Shown here in pieces: positions 15,997 through 25,524 of a stretch of 64,000 nucleotides of DNA. The stretch's first letter is position 1. Each line of letters starts with the position of its first letter. This DNA is from Muribaculaceae bacterium (GTDB lineage: Bacteria; Bacteroidota; Bacteroidia; Bacteroidales; Muribaculaceae), in the NCBI GenBank assembly GCA_017557425.1, contig JAFYYU010000004.1:1-64000 (forward strand), given 5' to 3'. The notes below the pieces were generated by a model, which was not told where the DNA came from, searched no databases, and saw only the letters and a list, made by a program, of their open reading frames with translations. The translations under genes were made by a program, and so were the position numbers.

Positions 15997-16036
15997 CGGG
16001 GCTCAAGCGCGACACCTGCGTTTGAGCCTCGTTTTT
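15997..16036 (+). terminator. Terminator after the dockerin-like gene
   Basis: CGGGGCTCAAGCGC (15997-16010) pairs with GCGTTTGAGCCTCG (16018-16031) over 14 positions with two G-T pairs and a 7-nt loop, followed by a T run. Confidence 0.9.
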
Positions 16037-16112
16037 GTATGCTCGTGGCTATAGGCATCATTCGATAAAAGATGGGGCAGCGGCTTTGACAAGAAGCAAC
16101 AGTGTCAGGCGA

Positions 16113-16458
16113 GCAGGCCGTCGGCCTGCACAAGGCCAGCGGCCTTGAAGTGAGGTAGCATCACGGCGCACAGGCCGAAGGTCTGTGTGGCGTGGTGACA
16201 GATGACATGAGTAAAACGGGCCTCGAAGAGGGCCAACTCGTATGGGAGCGAAGAATTTGCACATCAACCGATTATTTGAACCTATAAAGGTGAACGCGGG
16301 CATCGAATGGAATGACTATCGCCTGACATAGGCATGTTGGCCCTCTACGAGGCCCTATCACTGTTTGCTTTTCACCCCACGCCACACAGACCTGCGGCCT
16401 GTGCGCCGCGGGGTTTACTCAAGTCAAGGCCGTCGGCCTTGCTGTGGTCTTCGACCAC
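16113..16458. repeat. Mirrored array of eight short hairpins in a 680-bp intergenic region
   Basis: Four hairpins on the left are matched in reverse order and orientation by four on the right. Left: H1 16113-16129 (GCAGGCC/GGCCTGC), H2 16131-16147 (CAAGGCC/GGCCTTG), H3 16169-16187 (CACAGGCC/GGTCTGTG), H4 16219-16234 (GGCCTC/GAGGGCC). Right: H5 16339-16354 (GGCCCTC/GAGGCC), H6 16385-16403 (CACAGACC/GGCCTGTG), H7 16425-16441 (CAAGGCC/GGCCTTG), H8 16444-16458 (GTGGTC/GACCAC). All have 3-nt loops. The reverse complement of the right arm closely follows the left arm outside the stems too (for example GGTCTGTGTGGCGTGG). The 16235-16338 centre is not palindromic. It may be a non-autonomous mobile element or a structured RNA. 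I see no supported gene in 15978-16661. Confidence 0.8.
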
Positions 16459-16527
16459 GATTACTTCTCCCTTCGTTTTTCCGCTGAGCCGGCTATAGTA
16501 GGAGTCTCTGCTAGATGCAATTAAAAG

Positions 16528-16563
16528 AATCCCGCCGAGCCCATTCACGGGTGCGGCGGGATT
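16528..16563 (-). terminator. Terminator of the glp operon (minus strand)
   Basis: AATCCCGCCG (16528-16537) and CGGCGGGATT (16554-16563) pair over 10 bp. Read on the minus strand, the stem is followed by CTTTTAATTG. It lies about 100 bp past the porin stop codon. Confidence 0.75.
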
Positions 16564-16661
16564 ACGTTGATTGATAGGAAAAATAATTCTAAAGTAAATC
16601 GATGATGGTATTTAGATCTATCTAATTAGATTATTCCTAATATGACCGGTAACTTCCTCGA

Positions 16662-18002
16662 TTAGAAAGTGAACTGAACGCGGGCCTGAGCCACGTGAAC
16701 GTTGCGGTCATAGGGGAGCCAGTCCTTCTGCAGGCGGTTGTAGGTGTAGTCAAACATGCACAGCACGTAGCGGTTGAAGCTGTAGTTCAGACCGATAGTG
16801 TAGCTGTTGGCTTTACCGCCACCCACGCTCGACGAAGCGTAGGGCCAGTCCTCCATATAGGCGTTGGGATAGTACTGGTTACGGCCTACGGCATAGTATT
16901 CGCCCTCGTTGACGTCGTTGAGGCTGGTGTAGTTCCAGCGTCCAACAATCTCCAGAGCTTTGCCGTCAAGACCACCCAGCAGACCTTCCTGCATGTTGTA
17001 GTGGTAGGGGTTGCCAAAGAGCAAGAAACCGGCCTCTACATAACCGCCGTGGAAGTTGTCGCTGCGCAGGGGGTTGGCTGCCAACCACCAGTCGTAGGAA
17101 CCCCAGGTATCGATATTGTTGTTGCTGGCCTCCCACAAGGTGTTGCTGTCGCGCTTCTTGGTGGTGTGCTTGTAGAGGTACTCACCACGTACGAAGAAAC
17201 GGTCGTTGTGATAGAGGAACTCGGCACCGGCATCAAACACGTTGTCAATCCAATCCAGATCGCAGCTCACGAACTGGTCATCCTCGTCAACATAGGTCTC
17301 CAGGGCTTGTCCCAGGTGGAGGGTCTTCTTCAGGACGTTGTTGTAAACGACGCCGCCACCCATGTGGGCATAGCGCACGTTGGCACCGATGTGCAGGGTC
17401 TGGGTCTCGTCAGCGATGGGACGGAACAAGTAGCGTCCAGCCACGGTCATGCCGTTGAAACCAGCCTCGATCTTGTTATAAGCGTTCTCGGTGAAGATAC
17501 CTTGATAAGCCATGAAACGATCGGTGTTGAACTTGTAGCTGATACCCAGCTCACGGCCTTCGCCAAGGGCGTTGGTCGAACCGGGACGGCTGATGAAGTG
17601 ATAGCTGCCCAGCGAGGTGTTGCGGGCCATCGAGCCGGCGGGATCGTTGTAGTAACCCACCTTGATGGCATGGGTATTGTCGTTGTTGTCGAAGTGGGTG
17701 TACTGCAGGAAGATGTTCTTCTGAGCGAACTTGCCGCCGCCAAAGCCGAAGTCGGCATAGAAGTACCAATCCTTGTACGTCATCGAGGTGCGGATGCGGG
17801 CATCGGTGATCGAGGCACCGCTCTGCAGCGGGGTGAAGTCGCTGTTATAGTATGCGGCGTCGGCCATCATGCGGGCACCCACGGTGAACTTCACTTCCTT
17901 CTCAGCGTTCTCGAGCTCCAGGGTGGGGTCGGTGTCGAAGTCCTGAGCGGCTGCTGTCAGCGCAAAGACTGCCAAAAGAGGCATCAAAATATATTTTTTC
18001 AT
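16662..18002 (-). CDS. Phosphate-selective porin O/P family outer-membrane protein
   Basis: The 446-residue product starts at ATG 18000-18002 (MKKYILMPLLAVFALTAAAQ), giving a clean signal peptide; a start 12 codons earlier would precede it. The mature protein is a barrel of alternating aromatic strands with porin O/P features: FTVGARMMADAAYY, ARIRTSMTYKDWYFYADFGFGGG, LFRPIADE, and a last strand ending VQARVQFTF-like with a terminal Phe. OprO/OprP proteins pass anions such as phosphate. As the last gene of the glp operon, 51 bp after the diesterase gene, it likely admits glycerol-3-phosphate or glycerophosphodiesters across the outer membrane; this is inferred from context. Confidence 0.85.
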   Translation of the reverse strand: MKKYILMPLLAVFALTAAAQDFDTDPTLELENAEKEVKFTVGARMMADAAYYNSDFTPLQSGASITDARIRTSMTYKDWYFYADFGFGGGKFAQKNIFLQYTHFDNNDNTHAIKVGYYNDPAGSMARNTSLGSYHFISRPGSTNALGEGRELGISYKFNTDRFMAYQGIFTENAYNKIEAGFNGMTVAGRYLFRPIADETQTLHIGANVRYAHMGGGVVYNNVLKKTLHLGQALETYVDEDDQFVSCDLDWIDNVFDAGAEFLYHNDRFFVRGEYLYKHTTKKRDSNTLWEASNNNIDTWGSYDWWLAANPLRSDNFHGGYVEAGFLLFGNPYHYNMQEGLLGGLDGKALEIVGRWNYTSLNDVNEGEYYAVGRNQYYPNAYMEDWPYASSSVGGGKANSYTIGLNYSFNRYVLCMFDYTYNRLQKDWLPYDRNVHVAQARVQFTF

Positions 18003-18053
18003 ATTAAATAGTGTCGATTTAATGTTGTTAATGTTCATTACACCAGTGACGGA

Positions 18054-19739
18054 TTAGTAACCCAGACGTTCAAGCAGTGCCTTGGGGTCGGGAACCTTGT
18101 TGGGGGCCTGTGAGTTGTCGTAGGTCTGTCCGGGGTGGAACGGGTTGGGCAGTGCGCCGTTGCAGCGGAAACCGTTCTCGATCATGTACTGCAGCGAGAT
18201 CTCACTGCGGTTGGTGAAGTAGCCGTCCAGATAGACGGGAACACTATTCGAGCCCTGGAAGTTGGTGTAGGGGGTAGCGGGGATGGTCAGACGCAACAGG
18301 TCATCAAACATGGTGGTGTTGCCCTGGCCGTAGTAGTCCACGTAGTAGCCCATATACTTTGACATCTGGGCATAGCTGTCGAACGAGTAGGGATGGTTCA
18401 GCATCTGGCTCTTGCGGATCATGTAGGCCTGCCAGGGCTGGTTCATCTCGGGATAGTTGTTGGGAGCACCGCTGATGGCCGGACCCATGATGTGGGCACC
18501 CCATTCCTGTCCGTAGCGGATGAAGTCGGCGTAGCCGGTGGGGGTGTCATAAGCGATATCGGTAGCATAGGGAACAGGCTCGCTGATCCACAGCAGGAAG
18601 CACATGGGAACCTCACCCTTGAACACGTCATAAGCGCGGTGCAGAGCGTCGAACGAGAAGGTTTGCAGGATCACCTTACCGTTGGTGTTACCCACGTTCA
18701 CCTTGCCGCTCACATAGAAACGGGTGTCGCTGGCGGGCTTGGTGATGATGTTCCAGCCGCACTCGGCCAGCACGTTGTAAACGCGAACCTCCATATCCTT
18801 GGGGTTCAGCCAGCTCTCCTTGAACTCGATGTAGATACCGGGGCGGTTGCCGGTGTCCTGCTCGTCGTCAACATAGGCGTTAGCGAAGTCATACTCCACA
18901 AAGTCCATGTACTTGGCAGCGTAGCTGTAGCTTACGTTGGGATCGTCACACTTGACGGTCTTGTGCTCGCTGTTGTAGATCTGCTCCAGGGTCATGCCTT
19001 TGTATTTGTCCTTGATGCGGTAGGGCAGGACGCGCTCGCCGTTGGCATTGCGCCTCAGCTTCTTACCTTCGGCAAAGGCAATCTGGTCCTGGATGGCCGA
19101 AACGTAGAGACCGTCGCTGTAAACGATCTGGCCATTGTTGTAGTAACCGTTGTGGGTGGCGGCAAAACCGTCGCGGGCCTCTTCCAGGCTGCTGTTGTTG
19201 AACCAGGTACCTGCATCGAGCATGAGCAGCTCGGCATAGTAGTAGGACATGGTGTAGAACGTGCGGAAGTCGTTCACGTCACGCTGATACTGGGCTTCGA
19301 TGTCGGCCTCGGAGAAGACCTGGTTGCCGTTGGCATCCTTGAAGCTGCGGTAGAAGTCCTTGCGCGTGGTGGGAACATAGTCGCTGAAGACGTACTGGAT
19401 GTTGGTGGTACGCTTCAGGTTCTCATCGTGGTTTGCGAGCACGATACCGTCCTTGGTAGCCTGCATATCGCTCTCCAGGTAGTCGGCGCCCATCTCACGG
19501 GCCCAGCGCCACGATGCCTCGGTCTCCTCGGGAGTCCAGAAGATGGAGCCACGGTGGGCTGCCACGGCATACAAGGGCACATAGTCACGCACCTTTGCCA
19601 GATTGGCGGGCAGGACAGGAACCTCAATCCTGCGGGCATCGGTGTTCTCATTGGTGAACTGCTGTTCATCCTCACATGAGGTAAAGGTCGTGAGCACAAC
19701 GGCACTCAACAAACCTACTCTAACGAGATTCTTAAACAT
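18054..19739 (-). CDS. glpQ: Glycerophosphodiester phosphodiesterase lipoprotein
   Basis: The 561-residue lipoprotein has lipobox TFTSC with Cys22, followed by EDEQ. The GDPD catalytic site is clear: His62-Arg63-Gly64 in AAHRGSIFWTPEE, the metal pair in DYLESDMQATKDG, and the second His in LANHDENLKRTTN. It should cleave glycerophosphodiesters to glycerol-3-phosphate and an alcohol in the periplasm or at the surface. It is much longer than the usual 330-380 residues. Between the active-site halves lies an inserted, Tyr-rich stretch (about 115-265), and the C-terminal third (about 400-561) also exceeds the basic barrel. It sits between glpT and the porin gene in the glp operon, which supports the assignment. 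Confidence 0.88.
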   Translation of the reverse strand: MFKNLVRVGLLSAVVLTTFTSCEDEQQFTNENTDARRIEVPVLPANLAKVRDYVPLYAVAAHRGSIFWTPEETEASWRWAREMGADYLESDMQATKDGIVLANHDENLKRTTNIQYVFSDYVPTTRKDFYRSFKDANGNQVFSEADIEAQYQRDVNDFRTFYTMSYYYAELLMLDAGTWFNNSSLEEARDGFAATHNGYYNNGQIVYSDGLYVSAIQDQIAFAEGKKLRRNANGERVLPYRIKDKYKGMTLEQIYNSEHKTVKCDDPNVSYSYAAKYMDFVEYDFANAYVDDEQDTGNRPGIYIEFKESWLNPKDMEVRVYNVLAECGWNIITKPASDTRFYVSGKVNVGNTNGKVILQTFSFDALHRAYDVFKGEVPMCFLLWISEPVPYATDIAYDTPTGYADFIRYGQEWGAHIMGPAISGAPNNYPEMNQPWQAYMIRKSQMLNHPYSFDSYAQMSKYMGYYVDYYGQGNTTMFDDLLRLTIPATPYTNFQGSNSVPVYLDGYFTNRSEISLQYMIENGFRCNGALPNPFHPGQTYDNSQAPNKVPDPKALLERLGY

Positions 19740-19781
19740 AAGTCGTTTGGTTTTTAATGAATAAAATATTGTAATAATTGA

Positions 19782-21206
19782 TTATTTCTTTTCGAGGTGT
19801 TCGCCCTTGCGGTCAGCAACAAGGTACTGCTCCTCTTTGTAGGTGAGAGCCATGAAGAAGATGGCACAGACGCAACCCACAATCAGCAGGATGAACGGCA
19901 TGTCCCAGCCACCGGTGCTCTCGGCAACATAACCCAGAACGGTATTGGCGAGGATTGCGGTACCCAGCACATAACCCATGAAACCGGTTAAGCCGGCAGC
20001 GGTACCTGCTGCATTCTTGGGGGCGAGGTCAAGAGCCTGCACGCCAATAAGCATCACAGGACCATAGATCAGGAAGCCGATAGCAATCAGACAACCGATA
20101 ACAACGCTCAGGTTGGTCATATTCTGCCAGTAGATAATGATGGCGACGATGATGAGTGCCATGAAAATCATTGTGGGCAATGCGCGACGGCCGTTGAAGA
20201 CCTTGTCGCTCAGCCAGCCGCAGAAGATAGTGCCGGGGATAGCGGCGATCTCATAGGCAAAGTAAGCCCAACCTGCATTCTTGATGTCCACGCCCTGCTC
20301 GCTCAGGATGGTAGGAGCCCAATCCAGGCAGCCGTAGCGTACCATATAAATAAATGAGTTGGCCAATGCGATGTACCACAAGAACTTGTTGGAGAGGACG
20401 GTCTTGAAGATTTCCTTCACGCTGAGCGACTGCTCGCTCTTCTTCTCGTCATAGTTCTTGGAGGCAGAGCCGCTCCACTTCTCAATCGACTGTAAACCAC
20501 AGGATTGGGGGGTGTCACGGATGAGAATATAGGCAATGATGGCGATCAGGATGGCCACAGCAGCGGGGAAAGCATAGGTACCAATCAGGAAGTACATCTT
20601 CTCATCGTTGCCGTAGAACCACGAGCCGAACCACATGGCACCATAAGCGGCCATGGGGCCGACGAGGGCGCCACCCACGTTATGGGCGGTGTTCCACACA
20701 CTCATCCAGGTGCCGCGCTCCTTAATGGAGAACCAGCGTGTCATCACACGTCCGCACGGAGGCCAGCCCATTCCCTGGAACCAACCCACGAGGAAGTTGA
20801 AGGCGCCCATCAGGAAAACGGCAAGACCCTTGCGCTCGGGATGGCCGATGGGGTCGAGCAGGGTGATGGGAACCATCATGAACAGCATGGCGATGGCCGA
20901 CAGGATCAAGCCCAGTGGCAGGAAGCGGCGCGCATTGCTGCGGTCGCTGATGCTGGCCATTACGAACTTGGAGAAGCCATAGGCCACAGCGTTCATCGCC
21001 AGGGCGGTACCCAGCATGCCCTTGGTGAAGCCGAAGGGCTCGAGCATAGGAATCGCCATGGAGAAATTCTTTCTCACCAGGTAGAAGCCGGCATAGCCGA
21101 TGAAGATGCCGATAAAGACTTGCCAACGTAGTCTCTTGTACTTGGCATCGGCCTCGGGACCGGTCTGTTCCGGCTTATAGGCCGGGGGTGCTAAAAAACT
21201 AGCCAT
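19782..21206 (-). CDS. glpT: Glycerol-3-phosphate transporter (MFS, organophosphate:phosphate antiporter)
   Basis: The 474-residue inner-membrane protein has 12 hydrophobic helices. The organophosphate antiporter signature is seen in RWQVFIGIFIGYAGFYLVRKNFS near the N-terminus and in WFQGMGWPPCGRVMTRWFS (about 153-171), close to E. coli GlpT. The Arg residues in YLVRK and WPPCGR are expected to bind the phosphate group. It should exchange periplasmic G3P for cytoplasmic phosphate. It lies 65 bp after glpC and 42 bp before glpQ on the same strand, as in the classical glpTQ arrangement. UhpT-type hexose phosphate transport is possible by family but unlikely in this operon. Confidence 0.92.
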   Translation of the reverse strand: MASFLAPPAYKPEQTGPEADAKYKRLRWQVFIGIFIGYAGFYLVRKNFSMAIPMLEPFGFTKGMLGTALAMNAVAYGFSKFVMASISDRSNARRFLPLGLILSAIAMLFMMVPITLLDPIGHPERKGLAVFLMGAFNFLVGWFQGMGWPPCGRVMTRWFSIKERGTWMSVWNTAHNVGGALVGPMAAYGAMWFGSWFYGNDEKMYFLIGTYAFPAAVAILIAIIAYILIRDTPQSCGLQSIEKWSGSASKNYDEKKSEQSLSVKEIFKTVLSNKFLWYIALANSFIYMVRYGCLDWAPTILSEQGVDIKNAGWAYFAYEIAAIPGTIFCGWLSDKVFNGRRALPTMIFMALIIVAIIIYWQNMTNLSVVIGCLIAIGFLIYGPVMLIGVQALDLAPKNAAGTAAGLTGFMGYVLGTAILANTVLGYVAESTGGWDMPFILLIVGCVCAIFFMALTYKEEQYLVADRKGEHLEKK

Positions 21207-21271
21207 AATCTTGAGATTTTTTAGTTGATTGAAGTTTATAGTATTACTTTAAAATGATATGCTAAATATTT

Positions 21272-22534
21272 TTAATCAATTCCGTTAGCTTTGCGGGTTG
21301 CATCCAAATCCAGGGCATCGGCGAGGATGCTGATGGGATTCTCGACGGGCAGGCCGGTGGACATCTCGATTTGCCATTTGCAGGTCTCGCAGTCGGTGGC
21401 TACAGCCTCGACCTGGGCATCGGAGATGTCCTTGAACAGGATGGAGCCGATGGCCTGTGAGCGCTCGTAGTTTTCCTTCTTGAAACCATAGGTGCCCGAG
21501 ATGCCGCAGCAGTTCTGCTCCAGTACTTGCAGGTCCAGGCTGGGAATCATGCGCATCAGTTCAATGCTGTACAGTTGCCAGCCCATGCGCTGCATGTGAC
21601 AAGCGGTATGATAGGCTATTCTTCGCTTATAGTCTTGCTTGAAAACAAGCTTTACTTTCTCCTCATCCACAAGGTTGTAGATGAATCGCGTTGCCAATGA
21701 GATACCGTCACGCACGTCGGTGGTGTCCACCTTGAGTACGGCAGGGTACTCGTCGCGCAGGTTGAAGGTGCAGCTCGAACTGGTGGTCAATACCGTGCGG
21801 TGATCCATGTTGACGGCCTTGCGGATGCTGGCAGCGTTGGTGCGTGCCTGACGCTTCGCCTGCTTGTACAAGCCGTTGGCAATCAGGGCAACACCGCAGC
21901 ACTGCTCCTTCTCAAGCAGGTGCACGCCGTAACCGATGGCGTTCATCAGCTTGACCAGATCCTGGCCCAGTTTGGGGAAGTTATAGTTGACATAGCAGCC
22001 GTGGAAATAGCTCACATGGTTGGGGAAAGCGTCCTGCTGCTTGGCGGCGTGGCGCTTGAACCAGGTGGTGAACTTCTGGCGGCTATAGGCGGGGAAAGTG
22101 CGGTGTTTGTCAATGGCCATCACGCTGTCCATCACCAGTTTAGTGGGTTTCAGGCCCAGCGTGGCATTGGCGACGGGCGCTACCAGATTGGCCATCGTTC
22201 CCAGCAGGTCGGTGTTGGCGAGCATGGTGTCGCGCAGGCTGGCATGGTGTCCTGCCGAGGCACTCATGCGTGCGTGTTGGATAATGTCGGCAATGTGTAC
22301 ACCGCTGGGACAAGCCACCTCACAGCGTTTGCAGTTCAGGCACAACTTCAGGGCCTTGTCAAAGTAGGCGGGGTCCTTCAAGCGGTAACGCTCACCGTCG
22401 GGACCGGCCTGTTTGGGTCCGGGATAGTCGGTGGTTACAGCGGCGACTGGGCAGACCGTGGTGCAGATGCTGCACTTGGTGCATTGCTCGAAGTTGTTCT
22501 CGCTGAGGTTGCATATTTGCATTCGTTCAGCCAT
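21272..22534 (-). CDS. glpC: Anaerobic glycerol-3-phosphate dehydrogenase subunit C
   Basis: The 420-residue iron-sulfur subunit has two 4Fe-4S motifs: CTKCSICTTVCPV (about 18-30) and CLNCKRCEVACPSG (about 70-83). Two CCG domains follow, marked by KEQCCGVAL and EQNCCGISGTYG, of the heterodisulfide-reductase/GlpC type. It anchors the GlpAB flavoprotein to the membrane and passes electrons to menaquinone. Length equals E. coli GlpC. It lies downstream of glpB with a 102-bp gap, in the expected A-B-C order. Confidence 0.95.
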   Translation of the reverse strand: MAERMQICNLSENNFEQCTKCSICTTVCPVAAVTTDYPGPKQAGPDGERYRLKDPAYFDKALKLCLNCKRCEVACPSGVHIADIIQHARMSASAGHHASLRDTMLANTDLLGTMANLVAPVANATLGLKPTKLVMDSVMAIDKHRTFPAYSRQKFTTWFKRHAAKQQDAFPNHVSYFHGCYVNYNFPKLGQDLVKLMNAIGYGVHLLEKEQCCGVALIANGLYKQAKRQARTNAASIRKAVNMDHRTVLTTSSSCTFNLRDEYPAVLKVDTTDVRDGISLATRFIYNLVDEEKVKLVFKQDYKRRIAYHTACHMQRMGWQLYSIELMRMIPSLDLQVLEQNCCGISGTYGFKKENYERSQAIGSILFKDISDAQVEAVATDCETCKWQIEMSTGLPVENPISILADALDLDATRKANGID

Positions 22535-22636
22535 AATATCTCATTAAAAAATCATCAATCAAATCGTTATCTATCTATATCTAAACCTTTAGTCGAATAT
22601 TGTAGGACTGTAGGTGATGCATGGTTGAGGATGCGT

Positions 22637-23884
22637 TTATTTGCTCTCCCTGATGTGGTCGGCGGCTGCAATGGCCGTCATCAGTGAAACGCCGGTACCG
22701 TCACCCATCTTGATGGCATCGTGTCCGCTCAGGACAGAGCCGATGGCGTAGAGGTTTTGAATGGGTTTGCCCTGCTTGAGGCAATGGAGGTTGCCGTCAG
22801 TGGCCACGCCATAGCCGAAATAGGCTTGGGGCTGCAGCACACCGAAGTGTGTCCACTGTTCGCGATCAGCGTCGGCATCCACATCAACTCCCAGCACGGG
22901 TTCATAGACGCGCTCGTAATCGGCTCTCAAGCCTCGGCTGATGAACGAGCCGGTGGCAAGCACAAAGTTGTCGGCCTTCAGCGGCATGTCGGCGAGTTTG
23001 GCGGTGGTGATGCTGGTCAGGCGGTCGCCCTCAAAGGTGCCGCTCACGGCGGTGTCACCCATCAGGTAGGTGCCGCCCAGCATCCTGAAGTAGTGACGCA
23101 ACTGCGTCATCATCCTCATGCCGGCTACCGAGGGGGGCAACGTGGAAACCAGGCGAACGGGCTTCTTGGCCATGGCCTGCAGCGCTTGGTAATCGCTGCT
23201 GTCGCTCTGACCGAACACGCTGGGCAACAGCACCATATCGGTGTCGCCGGCAAGGCTGTTGACCTGGTCGGCCAGGCGTCTCAGCGCGTTGTTGCTCACC
23301 AGGTGCTTGGCGAGGCTGGTGGCGCGCATCTCGCTGGGGCTGCGGCGCAAGGCGGTGATGTCGTCGGTGGTGAACTCAATCATGTCCACTTCAAAGCCCA
23401 GGTCTCGCAATCCCTGTGCCAGCATGGCGTTGGGCTGGTCGAAGTAGCCGCGGATGCACATCAGTGCCAACCGTTTGGCGGGCAAGTTATTGAGGTCATC
23501 GATGCGCAGGTGGTCGTTCAGGGTGAGCCATGCGGGCTTGGCGACGCCCATCGGCGTAACGCGCCAGTGGTTGGCGTCGGCCGAGCCAGTCATCTCGATG
23601 CCCGAATCGCTGAACAACAGCTTAATACGTTCGGCGAGCGATGCGATGCGGTCGGCGCCGATCTTGCTGTAGGGATGGCTCTCGGGCAGGGTGGCGATGG
23701 CCTCCAAGGGGTTGGTGACAGCTTTGCCGTTAACGTGTCCCAGCAGCTCCATCGAACCGCCGTTAAACAGCAGGGTGCTTTGTCCGCTGGCTACGATGGC
23801 CACGCGCTTTCCGCGCTTGGCAAGTGAAATGCCGCAGGCAAGGCCGCTCAGGCCTCCGCCCATGATAACGGTGTCCATTCTCAT
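22637..23884 (-). CDS. glpB: Anaerobic glycerol-3-phosphate dehydrogenase subunit B
   Basis: The 415-residue flavoprotein has an N-terminal Rossmann motif TVIMGGGLSGLACGISLAKRG (residues about 5-25) and a second FAD-contact segment FVLATGSFISRGLRADYERVYEPV. The C-terminal GHDAIKMGDGTGVSLMTAIAAA segment closes the FAD site. It pairs with GlpA in the GlpABC complex that oxidises glycerol-3-phosphate to dihydroxyacetone phosphate with menaquinone. Its ATG overlaps the glpA stop by 4 bp, a sign of translational coupling. Confidence 0.94.
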   Translation of the reverse strand: MRMDTVIMGGGLSGLACGISLAKRGKRVAIVASGQSTLLFNGGSMELLGHVNGKAVTNPLEAIATLPESHPYSKIGADRIASLAERIKLLFSDSGIEMTGSADANHWRVTPMGVAKPAWLTLNDHLRIDDLNNLPAKRLALMCIRGYFDQPNAMLAQGLRDLGFEVDMIEFTTDDITALRRSPSEMRATSLAKHLVSNNALRRLADQVNSLAGDTDMVLLPSVFGQSDSSDYQALQAMAKKPVRLVSTLPPSVAGMRMMTQLRHYFRMLGGTYLMGDTAVSGTFEGDRLTSITTAKLADMPLKADNFVLATGSFISRGLRADYERVYEPVLGVDVDADADREQWTHFGVLQPQAYFGYGVATDGNLHCLKQGKPIQNLYAIGSVLSGHDAIKMGDGTGVSLMTAIAAADHIRESK

Positions 23885-25524
23885 TGCACGTCCTCCTTTC
23901 CTTCGGTATTAACAGCCATATCCAGTCCGCACAGGCCCTCGTAGATGAAAGCGGTCAACTGCGCCTCACGCAGGGTGTCGCCCCAAGCGACGGGCCTCAT
24001 GCCTTTCCAGCGCTCGTCAAGGAAGGCGGCAAGGTCTTCCTGTGCGCCCTTGACGTCGTTCCTGAACTCGCCCATGAGAGATGCGGCGCGGCAGGAACAA
24101 AGCTTGCCCTGGCAGGTGCCCATGCCCACGCGGGTGCGTCGGCGCAGGTTCACCAGGTTGTGCACATGCAGCTGGTGTACAGCGTATTTGATTTCGCCCA
24201 CGGTGACGCCTTCACACTCGCAAACCAGGGCGTTGTCGATATCATTGTCTTTCTCGATGCGTGCCGCAAGCGATCCATGGCGGCCGATGGCGGCGCGCTG
24301 GCCAAAGCTGTAGCGCTTGGTCAAGTCGCTCTGGCTGGGGGCGCCTTCTTCCGAGCCGGGAAGGGGTTGGGTAGCGGTGACGCAGGGTGCAGTGTTGCCC
24401 AACTTGGCGCACACGGCATTGGTGGCAACCTCGCCCATCAGGCGATAGGTCATCATCTTGCCGCCGGTAATGGTGACGAAGCCCTCCAGGCCGTCGCGCT
24501 TGGCGTGGTCCAGGCACACGATGCCGCGGCTGATGCTGCGTCCGGTGGGGTCGTCGTCGCTGGCAACCAGGGGACGCACACCCGCATAGGCGCGGATGAT
24601 TCTCGTGGTAGCGAGCGACGGAGCGATTTTCACGCCCTCCTTGAGCAGGACGTCCACCTCCTCGCGTGTCACGCGCATGTCATCTACGGTCTCGATGGGG
24701 ATGCGGTCACTGGTCGTGCCGATGACGCACACCGTGTCGTCGGGGACGAGGATGTCGGCGTTGGCGGGCTTGCGGCAGCGGTTGATGACCATCTGGTTCA
24801 CGCGGTGGCCAAAGATGAGCAGCGCTCCGCGGGCGGGAAACATCTGGATGTTCACGCCAGCCGACTGGGCGATGCGCTGGCCCCAGATGCCGGCGGCGTT
24901 GACCACGATGCGGCCACGCACCTCGATGTGCTCACCGTTGAGTTTGTTGAACAGCTTCACGCCCTCGACGCGGTTCTGATTGATGATCAGTCCCTCGACC
25001 TCGTGGTAGTTGAGCGTCTCGGCGCCATGCATGCGGGCGTCGAGCAGGTTGGCCACGGTGAGGCGGAACGGGTCGATCGAGGCGTCGGGGACGCGCACGG
25101 CGCCGATGAGGTCGGGGTTAACGGCTGGCTCGATGCGGCGCGCTTCCTCGGGGTCGAGGATATCGGCACGGATGCCGGCGCGCTGGCACGCTTCCACGAA
25201 CGTCTGCTGGTAGCCCAGGTCATCCTCGGGCAGGGTGATGAAAAGACCGTCGGTCTCCTCGACACAGTGGCGGGCGATGCGCCTCAGGATCATGTTCTCG
25301 CTGATGCACTCGCTGGCGCTCTCGCTGTCGGTCACGGCATAACGCGCACCGCTGTGCATCAGGCCGTGGTTGCGGCCCGTGGCGCCCGTGCTGTAGTCGT
25401 TGCGCTCTACGAGCAACACGCTCAAGCCGCGCAGGGCGCAATCCCTCGCGGTTCCGGCACCTGTTGCGCCGCCACCCACGATGATCACGTCATATTCTTT
25501 TTTATAAATGTCGTTGGTTGCCAT
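23881..25524 (-). CDS. glpA: Anaerobic glycerol-3-phosphate dehydrogenase subunit A
   Basis: The 547-residue catalytic subunit binds FAD through VIIVGGGATGAGTARDCALRG (about 14-34). The DAO-like substrate domain includes ERNDYSTGATGRNHGLMHSGARY. The C-terminal BFD-like [2Fe-2S] domain has CECEGVT and GTCQGKLCS, four conserved cysteines. It is the first gene of the glp operon, with its promoter at 25570-25599 and the divergent regulator gene at 25884. It oxidises sn-glycerol-3-phosphate to DHAP. Length matches E. coli GlpA (542). Confidence 0.95.
   Translation of the reverse strand: MATNDIYKKEYDVIIVGGGATGAGTARDCALRGLSVLLVERNDYSTGATGRNHGLMHSGARYAVTDSESASECISENMILRRIARHCVEETDGLFITLPEDDLGYQQTFVEACQRAGIRADILDPEEARRIEPAVNPDLIGAVRVPDASIDPFRLTVANLLDARMHGAETLNYHEVEGLIINQNRVEGVKLFNKLNGEHIEVRGRIVVNAAGIWGQRIAQSAGVNIQMFPARGALLIFGHRVNQMVINRCRKPANADILVPDDTVCVIGTTSDRIPIETVDDMRVTREEVDVLLKEGVKIAPSLATTRIIRAYAGVRPLVASDDDPTGRSISRGIVCLDHAKRDGLEGFVTITGGKMMTYRLMGEVATNAVCAKLGNTAPCVTATQPLPGSEEGAPSQSDLTKRYSFGQRAAIGRHGSLAARIEKDNDIDNALVCECEGVTVGEIKYAVHQLHVHNLVNLRRRTRVGMGTCQGKLCSCRAASLMGEFRNDVKGAQEDLAAFLDERWKGMRPVAWGDTLREAQLTAFIYEGLCGLDMAVNTEGKEDVQ

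Follow-up and report, generated by a model that had tools for sequence, protein, structure and literature searches.

A hairpin array between two convergent genes lies inside a longer element

The window, the whole 64,000-nucleotide stretch of Muribaculaceae DNA analyzed here, carries eight small hairpins between two convergent genes, a porin-like gene (16662-18038) on one side and a neighboring dockerin gene. Further along, the open reading frames (ORFs) at 18054-25524 resemble, judged from their translations, a glycerol-3-phosphate uptake and dehydrogenase cluster. Homologues of the porin-like gene contain an in-frame stop in 11 of the 56 genus matches listed (e.g., in G062, G076, G038, G026, and G099), often at high identity.

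All eight hairpins, and their nested inverted order, were found where the earlier note had placed them, and the two arms are inverted copies of each other, with complementarity of 83% over 65 nt and 95% over 20 nt. Stems of 6 to 8 bp with trinucleotide loops had been described for the whole set; such hairpins are present, but the stems of H3 and H6 are long, with 16 pairs in the structure adopted here, and are interrupted by an internal G.G mismatch. H1 and H8 correspond in position and differ in sequence (GCAGGCC versus GTGGTC on the reverse strand). The 346-bp hairpin region that had been taken as the unit does consist of inverted arms, but it forms the interior of a non-autonomous element of 436 bp that extends from 16055 to 16490 and is bounded by an 8-bp direct repeat. 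The features are as follows.

16047-16054, no strand: left target-site duplication GGCTATAG, identical to 16491-16498
16055-16490, no strand: non-autonomous element, 436 bp, ends placed by the matrix; five relatives have the gene pair but no element
16055-16077, plus strand: left ISL3-type terminal inverted repeat GCATCATTCGATAAAAGATGGGG, 18 of 23 letters as in GGCTCACCCGATAAAAGGTGGGG of relatives
16113-16129, plus strand: H1, GCAGGCC-GTC-GGCCTGC
16131-16147, plus strand: H2, CAAGGCC-AGC-GGCCTTG
16159-16197, plus strand: H3, long stem with internal G.G mismatch and GAA loop
16218-16234, plus strand: H4, stem of the type GGgCCTC-GAA-GAGgGCC with conserved G.G mismatch
16290-16331, plus strand: 3'-end remnant of a Y1 transposase gene, recognized by translation, VNAGIEWNDYRLT then stop (the intact copy ends HAGLEWNEYRLT)
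16339-16355, minus strand: H5, mirror of H4
16375-16413, minus strand: H6, mirror of H3
16425-16441, minus strand: H7, mirror of H2
16444-16458, minus strand: H8, GTGGTC-TTC-GACCAC, counterpart of H1
16468-16490, minus strand: right ISL3-type terminal inverted repeat, reading inward GGCTCAGCGGAAAAACGAAGGGA, top score in the window
16491-16498, no strand: right target-site duplication GGCTATAG, identical to the left copy

The ends were located with a matrix of 16 letters that was derived from ends of other genomes and contains no sequences of the host genome. Among 127,968 window positions, the right end at 16490 ranks first and the left end at 16055 ranks tenth, with the runner-up in the 130-nt range of the left end scoring far lower. 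Of the two inverted repeats in the window, the left is weak, with 18 of 23 letters matching as counted by eye, and the 8-bp direct repeat immediately outside the two predicted ends is perfect. A dockerin gene is also present within the locus at 5 of 29 other porin loci, and all five lack the element; a single target copy is not visible at these five element-free sites, which are too diverged. Inside the element, one ORF reaches 80 aa (81 aa) and has no Pfam match, so no intact transposase gene is present there. The suggestion of a MITE-like element is thus borne out by the inverted repeats, the 8-bp duplication, the element-free sites, the further copies described below, and the lack of an intact gene.

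Near the same intergenic site of a genome without the full element, a 35-nt stretch resembling H1-H2 (L121, 1296-1330) is a possible remnant.

Terminator-like host hairpins flank the element at about 15997-16036 and 16531-16574, as judged by eye; they stand outside it, and an ordinary terminator was rejected as an identity for the array. A CRISPR array, already discounted in the earlier note, was rejected as well: the arms are inverted, regular direct repeats with spacers were not found, and the region holds one short direct family with three copies at uneven spacing (18 and 294).

The interior retains the end of a Y1 transposase gene

DNA searches of the host assembly (G000; 2.58 Mb, 24 contigs, 85% complete) found both arms also at C14:42820-43101 and C9:36237-37035, together with a lone left arm at C14:160059 and a short remnant at C11:3372-3418. 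In the C9 sister copy the arms enclose an intact 148-aa ORF, P0001, a Y1/HUH transposase that matches Pfam Y1_Tnp (E = 6e-21) and narrowly passes the NCBIfam IS200/IS605 model NF033573 (58 bits; cutoff, 55). The sole solved structure that matches P0001 by sequence at an E value of 0.01 is 2fyx, a putative transposase (E = 4e-4). Two further host Y1 genes, 39 to 40% identical to P0001, are flanked by mirrored arrays of other hairpins.

The center of the window copy, which had been described merely as non-palindromic, holds the 3' end of the transposase gene, and BLAST of this remnant covers 16296-16330 with 82.9% identity over 35 nt (E = 2e-6). Since the center keeps the last codons of the Y1 gene, the inner part of the window copy derives, by internal deletion, from a Y1 gene between mirrored arrays; most of the gene was lost and both arrays were kept.

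The flanks of the two sister copies are less regular. At the C9 copy, a duplication is doubtful, amounting to 4 of 8 letters at the matrix position and reaching 7 of 8 only after a shift made by eye. The C14 copy (L024, 4600-5400) is flanked by a 15-bp direct repeat, ATGATAAGCAAAAAC, rather than one of 8 bp, and at its left end roughly the first seven inverted-repeat letters are missing (both judged by eye).

Stem pairing is conserved, and loops in the main group show a polarity

The folding z scores are -12.5 and -14.0 for the two strands (100 dinucleotide shuffles each), and no shuffle folded as well. In 37 aligned arms, among which the right-arm row of L048 is shifted through wrong coordinates, 98.6% of cells pair, and partners slid by 1 to 3 columns pair in 28 to 57%. 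Both sides have changed in 18 of the 29 pairs of this alignment, compared with a shuffle mean of 6.0 and none of 500 shuffles as high, a count to be read with the caution that arms within one element may homogenize each other and so mimic covariation. The mismatches are kept as well: the internal position of H3/H6 is G and G in 37/37 aligned arms, and the G.G mismatch of H4/H5 is retained in all 36 aligned rows with letters. The stem covariation supports the earlier proposal of selection on structure. The absence of any second copy and of compensatory changes had been named beforehand as a refutation; second copies and such changes were both found.

Loops were counted in the 220-nt flanks of the 70 elements whose transposase identity is 44% or more; these come mostly from Bacteroidales, and one is from a planctomycete MAG. 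These flanks, about 15 kb on each side, hold 99 perfect triloop hairpins on the left and 122 on the right (0 and 3 in shuffles); in far flank, 13 were counted over 25.2 kb and 16 over 27.4 kb. Read toward the gene on each side, 58 of the 99 left hairpins and 84 of the 122 right hairpins have GNA loops, and 4 and 2 have TNC loops. Twenty-four elements at 35 to 44% identity carry 21 triloop hairpins on either side (shuffles, 3 and 3), of which 13 and 11 have GNA loops. Below 35% identity the 13 elements are mostly cyanobacterial and have tetraloop hairpins (17 and 22); their triloops (2 and 3) are no commoner than in controls. DNA mini-hairpins with GNA loops are known to be very stable (Yoshizawa et al. 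1997, as cited in PMC6479982). Folding with DNA parameters gives -4.6 kcal/mol for the GNA strand of H3 versus -2.8 for its complement, and -5.0 versus -2.8 kcal/mol for H4. This strand polarity speaks for single-stranded DNA over one transcript.

A different explanation could be that the arrays work as RNA, serving, between the two convergent genes, either to terminate transcription from both sides or to protect mRNA ends. Their location and the very stable RNA folding of both strands would suit such a role, but host terminator-like hairpins are already present on either side (by eye), the gene pair occurs without the element in five relatives, and the best Rfam score is 20.1 against a cutoff of 40, so that no Rfam family was assigned. 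An RNA role is further disfavored because one arm carries its GNA loops on one strand and the other arm on the opposite strand, an arrangement for which a single transcript has no need. We regard this explanation as very unlikely and the structured RNA of the earlier note as disfavored, and prefer hairpins that act as single-stranded DNA.

Mirrored arrays accompany Y1 genes across genomes

We scored inverted arms around Y1 genes at 134 loci chosen from L029-L206, with the repeat loci L088-L101 and the porin loci L117-L146 left out; subtracting eight loci too short at one side and seven duplicates gave 119 non-redundant loci, 110 of them full length. The inverted arm score is at least 25 at 107/119 loci and at 102/110 full-length loci, in a set that is dominated by one genus and whose loci are not independent. 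Controls with enough sequence (28/30 porin loci and 53/119 far windows) showed mirrored arms at one porin locus and two far windows. A separate, order-wide set comprised 19 loci, one of them too short to be scored; mirrored arms were found at 14 of the other 18, and the same layout, each time with its own hairpins, was seen at loci from Algoriphagus, a planctomycete MAG, several cyanobacteria, and a Chloroheliaceae MAG. Arm scores below 20 were obtained at loci including L039, L055, L060, L061, L081, L084, L087, and L107, and the mirrored layout was not seen at L055, L060, L081, and L087.

The motif Y-x3-Q-x2-HH is present in 108 of the 110 full-length homologues, in 107 together with the HUH motif, and homologues were found in Bacteroidota and cyanobacteria. 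P0001 itself has the traits of subclass 1.2, namely, a Y1 domain, HUH, Y-x3-Q-x2-HH, and a length of 148 aa; the two motifs and the length fit TnpA-Y1 subclass 1.2. Y1 homologues were detected in 79/101 genus genomes at an E value of 1e-10 and in 67/149 order genomes at 1e-15, and a covariance model of the arms matches 83/101 genus genomes, with at least 7 places in the host genome and at least 38 in the richest genome. Plasmids yielded two distant matches in the collection searched. Arm similarity tracks transposase relatedness (rho = 0.63, n = 97, 0/500 permutations as high), a correlation also expected from common descent.

In one genome, G094, two loci carry full copies that are nearly identical (99.3% over 828 bp). 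A clade of six loci (L111, L113, L116, L150, L151, and L152) has upstream DNA common to six genomes and downstream DNA common to four, and looks like one inherited, domesticated locus. Both mobile and settled forms of the Y1-array unit exist.

Two kinds of DDE-type end bound the same kind of interior

The genus contains an ISL3 element of the ISAon1 type (1,422 bp; PF01610, E = 5.6e-48) with matching inverted repeats and an 8-bp duplication, AGAATTAT. In genome G008, the end of two ISL3 matches is identical over 22 letters to the pattern derived from array elements. PF01610 matches occur in 8/101 genus genomes, seven of them over the cutoff; the ISL3 transposase has no match in the host genome (as an 85% complete assembly) or in G094, and repeats may drop out of assemblies. 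Both ISL3-type repeats exceed the 99% background threshold in only 9/107 array elements. Seven of these nine have at least 7 of 8 duplicated letters and two lack the duplication, compared with a maximum of 5 in 72 non-cognate pairs, the matrix behind the 7/9 figure having been partly trained on elements picked for visible duplication, which makes it partly circular and not unbiased. The end-repeat matrix was used because looking for whichever 8-mer is shared next to the arms was too loose (46/99 cognate versus 409/1500 non-cognate pairs); with the end-repeat condition the counts are 10/99 and 21/1500. Given the ISL3-type inverted repeats and the 8-bp duplication, the window element was most likely inserted by an ISL3-family DDE transposase acting in trans.

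Ends of this type also bound other interiors. A family of about 200 bp in genome G093 has ISL3-type ends as in the array elements and internal palindromes of its own; neither a Y1 gene nor GGCC arrays were seen in it. In L222, L227, L232, and L234 a duplication of 8 to 10 bp immediately adjoins the left end; none was found at the expected place in L230 and L236.

G094 provided a second kind of end. Six 417-bp array elements without a Y1 gene, whose 411-bp core differs by 0 to 6 positions, have another end type and 9-bp duplications, four exact and two with 8/9 letters; the other three of the nine loci in this set (L316-L318) differ by at least 20 positions and are without both family ends. Two deleted copies in this genome share one deletion junction. 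Like the six 417-bp elements, they show that deletion derivatives have been propagated as whole units. An IS4-family element of the genus (L358, 1,320 bp) has a 9-bp duplication, TCCTGAAGA, and ends like those of the G094 family, with 19/22 letters matching at the searched end. One kind of hairpin interior thus sits inside two kinds of DDE end, ISL3-type with 8-bp and IS4-type with 9-bp duplications, and there is good support for movement by DDE enzymes.

A third end type, GGGTCACCTGCAAAAACCTGTG and variants, is present in 27/101 genus genomes and also bounds Y1 elements, of which L115 and L201 have exact 8-bp duplications and L030 has CGTCTTCA. Its occurrences (L237-L266, L277-L286, and L290) often fall close to the ends of contigs, where a high-copy element would be expected.

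Could the Y1 enzyme alone move these elements, itself making the inverted repeats and duplications, with the link to DDE enzymes being coincidental? G094, which has recent near-identical copies but no PF01610 match, would fit that explanation, as would several related pairs in which homology ends at or near the outermost hairpin. However, the same ends and duplications flank both the roughly 200-bp G093 family, with neither Y1 gene nor arrays, and a true ISL3 insertion sequence, and the second end type, with its 9-bp duplications, resembles the ends of an IS4-family element. To our knowledge, moreover, known Y1 transposition (IS200/IS605) makes no duplication. We consider it improbable that the Y1 enzyme acts alone, and we keep to DDE-mediated movement of the outer ends.

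If the outer ends move the elements, the arrays might be neutral cargo, once part of a Y1 element and now carried by DDE enzymes only, with the Y1 protein having no present role. Some genomes do hold tens of arms, more than their Y1 matches, and the outer ends suffice for the multiplication of deleted copies. Against this stand the stem pairing, kept in nearly all cells despite changes, and the arms found at all but 8 of the 110 full-length Y1 genes examined, also outside the main genus. Neutral cargo strikes us as rather doubtful, and arrays that are at once partners of a Y1 enzyme and passengers of DDE-type elements remain the preferred reading.

Comparison with known systems and a two-layer model

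IS200/IS605 elements are defined by subterminal hairpins in the same orientation on one strand, with no inverted repeats and no duplication. The present units share with them a Y1 transposase that passes the family model, but have mirrored arms, with inverted repeats and a target duplication outside, and so fall outside that definition.

REPtrons, in which a RAYT gene is accompanied by REPINs, resemble our units in having inverted hairpins around a Y1 gene and dispersed copies. The kept mismatches and loops also resemble features that TnpA-REP enzymes read: the enzyme of E. coli needs a mismatch bulge, and other TnpA-REPs read loop letters (excerpts of PMC8266576). In contrast to REPtrons, which repeat a single REP, each side here carries roughly four distinct hairpins in a set order, and near-identical full copies occur at two loci of one genome. 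RAYT membership was rejected, P0001 scoring 29.7 bits against the NCBIfam RAYT model NF047646 (cutoff, 80). As for the GT[AG]G foot, GTAG precedes H3 in 1/37 aligned arms and GTGG never does, and neither precedes H4, in an alignment that starts at H2. The REP/BIME-like label of the earlier note is therefore apt for the kind of arrangement, inverted hairpin sets beside a Y1 transposase, but not for membership, for which both the RAYT model and the GTAG foot failed.

TIRtrons, described in 2013, likewise have a Y1 gene (TIRYT) between long inverted repeats, some self-complementary, and dispersed copies (PMC3733652, in the sections consulted). The 26 TIRYTs described comprise 20 of subclass 2.1 and 6 of subclasses 2.2 and 2.5, and none belongs to subclass 1.2, according to the available sections of PMC6006769 (Quentin et al. 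2018). Those sections list no REP for TnpA-Y1 subclass 1.2 and depict it as generally without typical IS200 terminal structures. The present enzymes agree with that subclass in length (148 aa), motif (Y-x3-Q-x2-HH), and occurrence in Bacteroidota and cyanobacteria, but differ in the mirrored arrays that flank 102/110 full-length loci. As the automatic search outlined in the same sections targeted GT[AG]G-footed hairpins, arrays of the present kind could have been missed. No description of hairpin arrays at subclass 1.2 genes was found in titles and abstract openings of the open-licence papers searched.

Considered from its ends, the window element shares terminal repeats and the 8-bp duplication with ISL3 (ISAon1-type) miniature elements, but its interior is a Y1 hairpin unit and not ISL3 DNA. 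The BrickBuilt MITE of Porphyromonas gingivalis (PMC4596501, in excerpt) offers a parallel, with IS-like ends and a foreign repetitive interior in a Bacteroidales genome, but that interior is a 23-nt tandem repeat; the words "hairpin," "palindrom," "ISL3," and "IS200" are absent from that paper.

We conclude, with a probability of roughly three in four, that the 436-bp element is built in two layers, ISL3-type ends outside and a gutted Y1 hairpin unit inside, and that the arrays are both substrates of Y1 enzymes and passengers of DDE-mobilized DNA. When the DNA becomes single stranded, for example, on the lagging strand, the hairpins would fold. By analogy with REPs and TnpA-REP, the folded hairpins, with their kept mismatches and, in the main group, mostly GNA loops, would be where the cognate Y1 enzyme recognizes and processes its DNA; we infer that this recognition takes place on single-stranded DNA. 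The inverted layout would place one correctly oriented array at the 5' side of each strand. Arrays could then spread in two ways, as partners of the Y1 enzyme and as passengers of miniature elements, and may have come to lie inside DDE ends by chance capture or through insertion by the Y1 enzyme.

A broader proposal would set the subclass 1.2 Y1 enzymes, together with their mirrored arrays, apart as a third system acting on single-stranded DNA, alongside IS200/IS605 and REPtrons and present in Bacteroidota, cyanobacteria, and other phyla. Each lineage would have its own ordered hairpin set, and the enzyme would build such sets in, or insert them into, unrelated DDE insertion sequences, whose interiors they would replace; the resulting miniature elements would then distribute the arrays over the genome. 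We offer this tentatively, as a possibility. The parts (Y1 enzymes, REP-like hairpins, and MITEs) were already known; the association of Y1 genes with these arrays and the layered build were not encountered in the literature searched. An orphan branch of HUH Y1 enzymes thereby gains a candidate DNA partner, and its function becomes testable. That one hairpin module occurs in two kinds of DDE-mobilized miniature element suggests that hairpin repeats can exploit other transposases for their own spread, and the many natural array variants with their cognate enzymes are a ready set for cleavage assays.

The module also occurs in direct repeats. Single arms stand in tandem on one strand, in four copies with a 218-bp period, at L328 (G088:C5:71519-72279), and with a 192-bp period at L329 (G098:C7:74943-75243).
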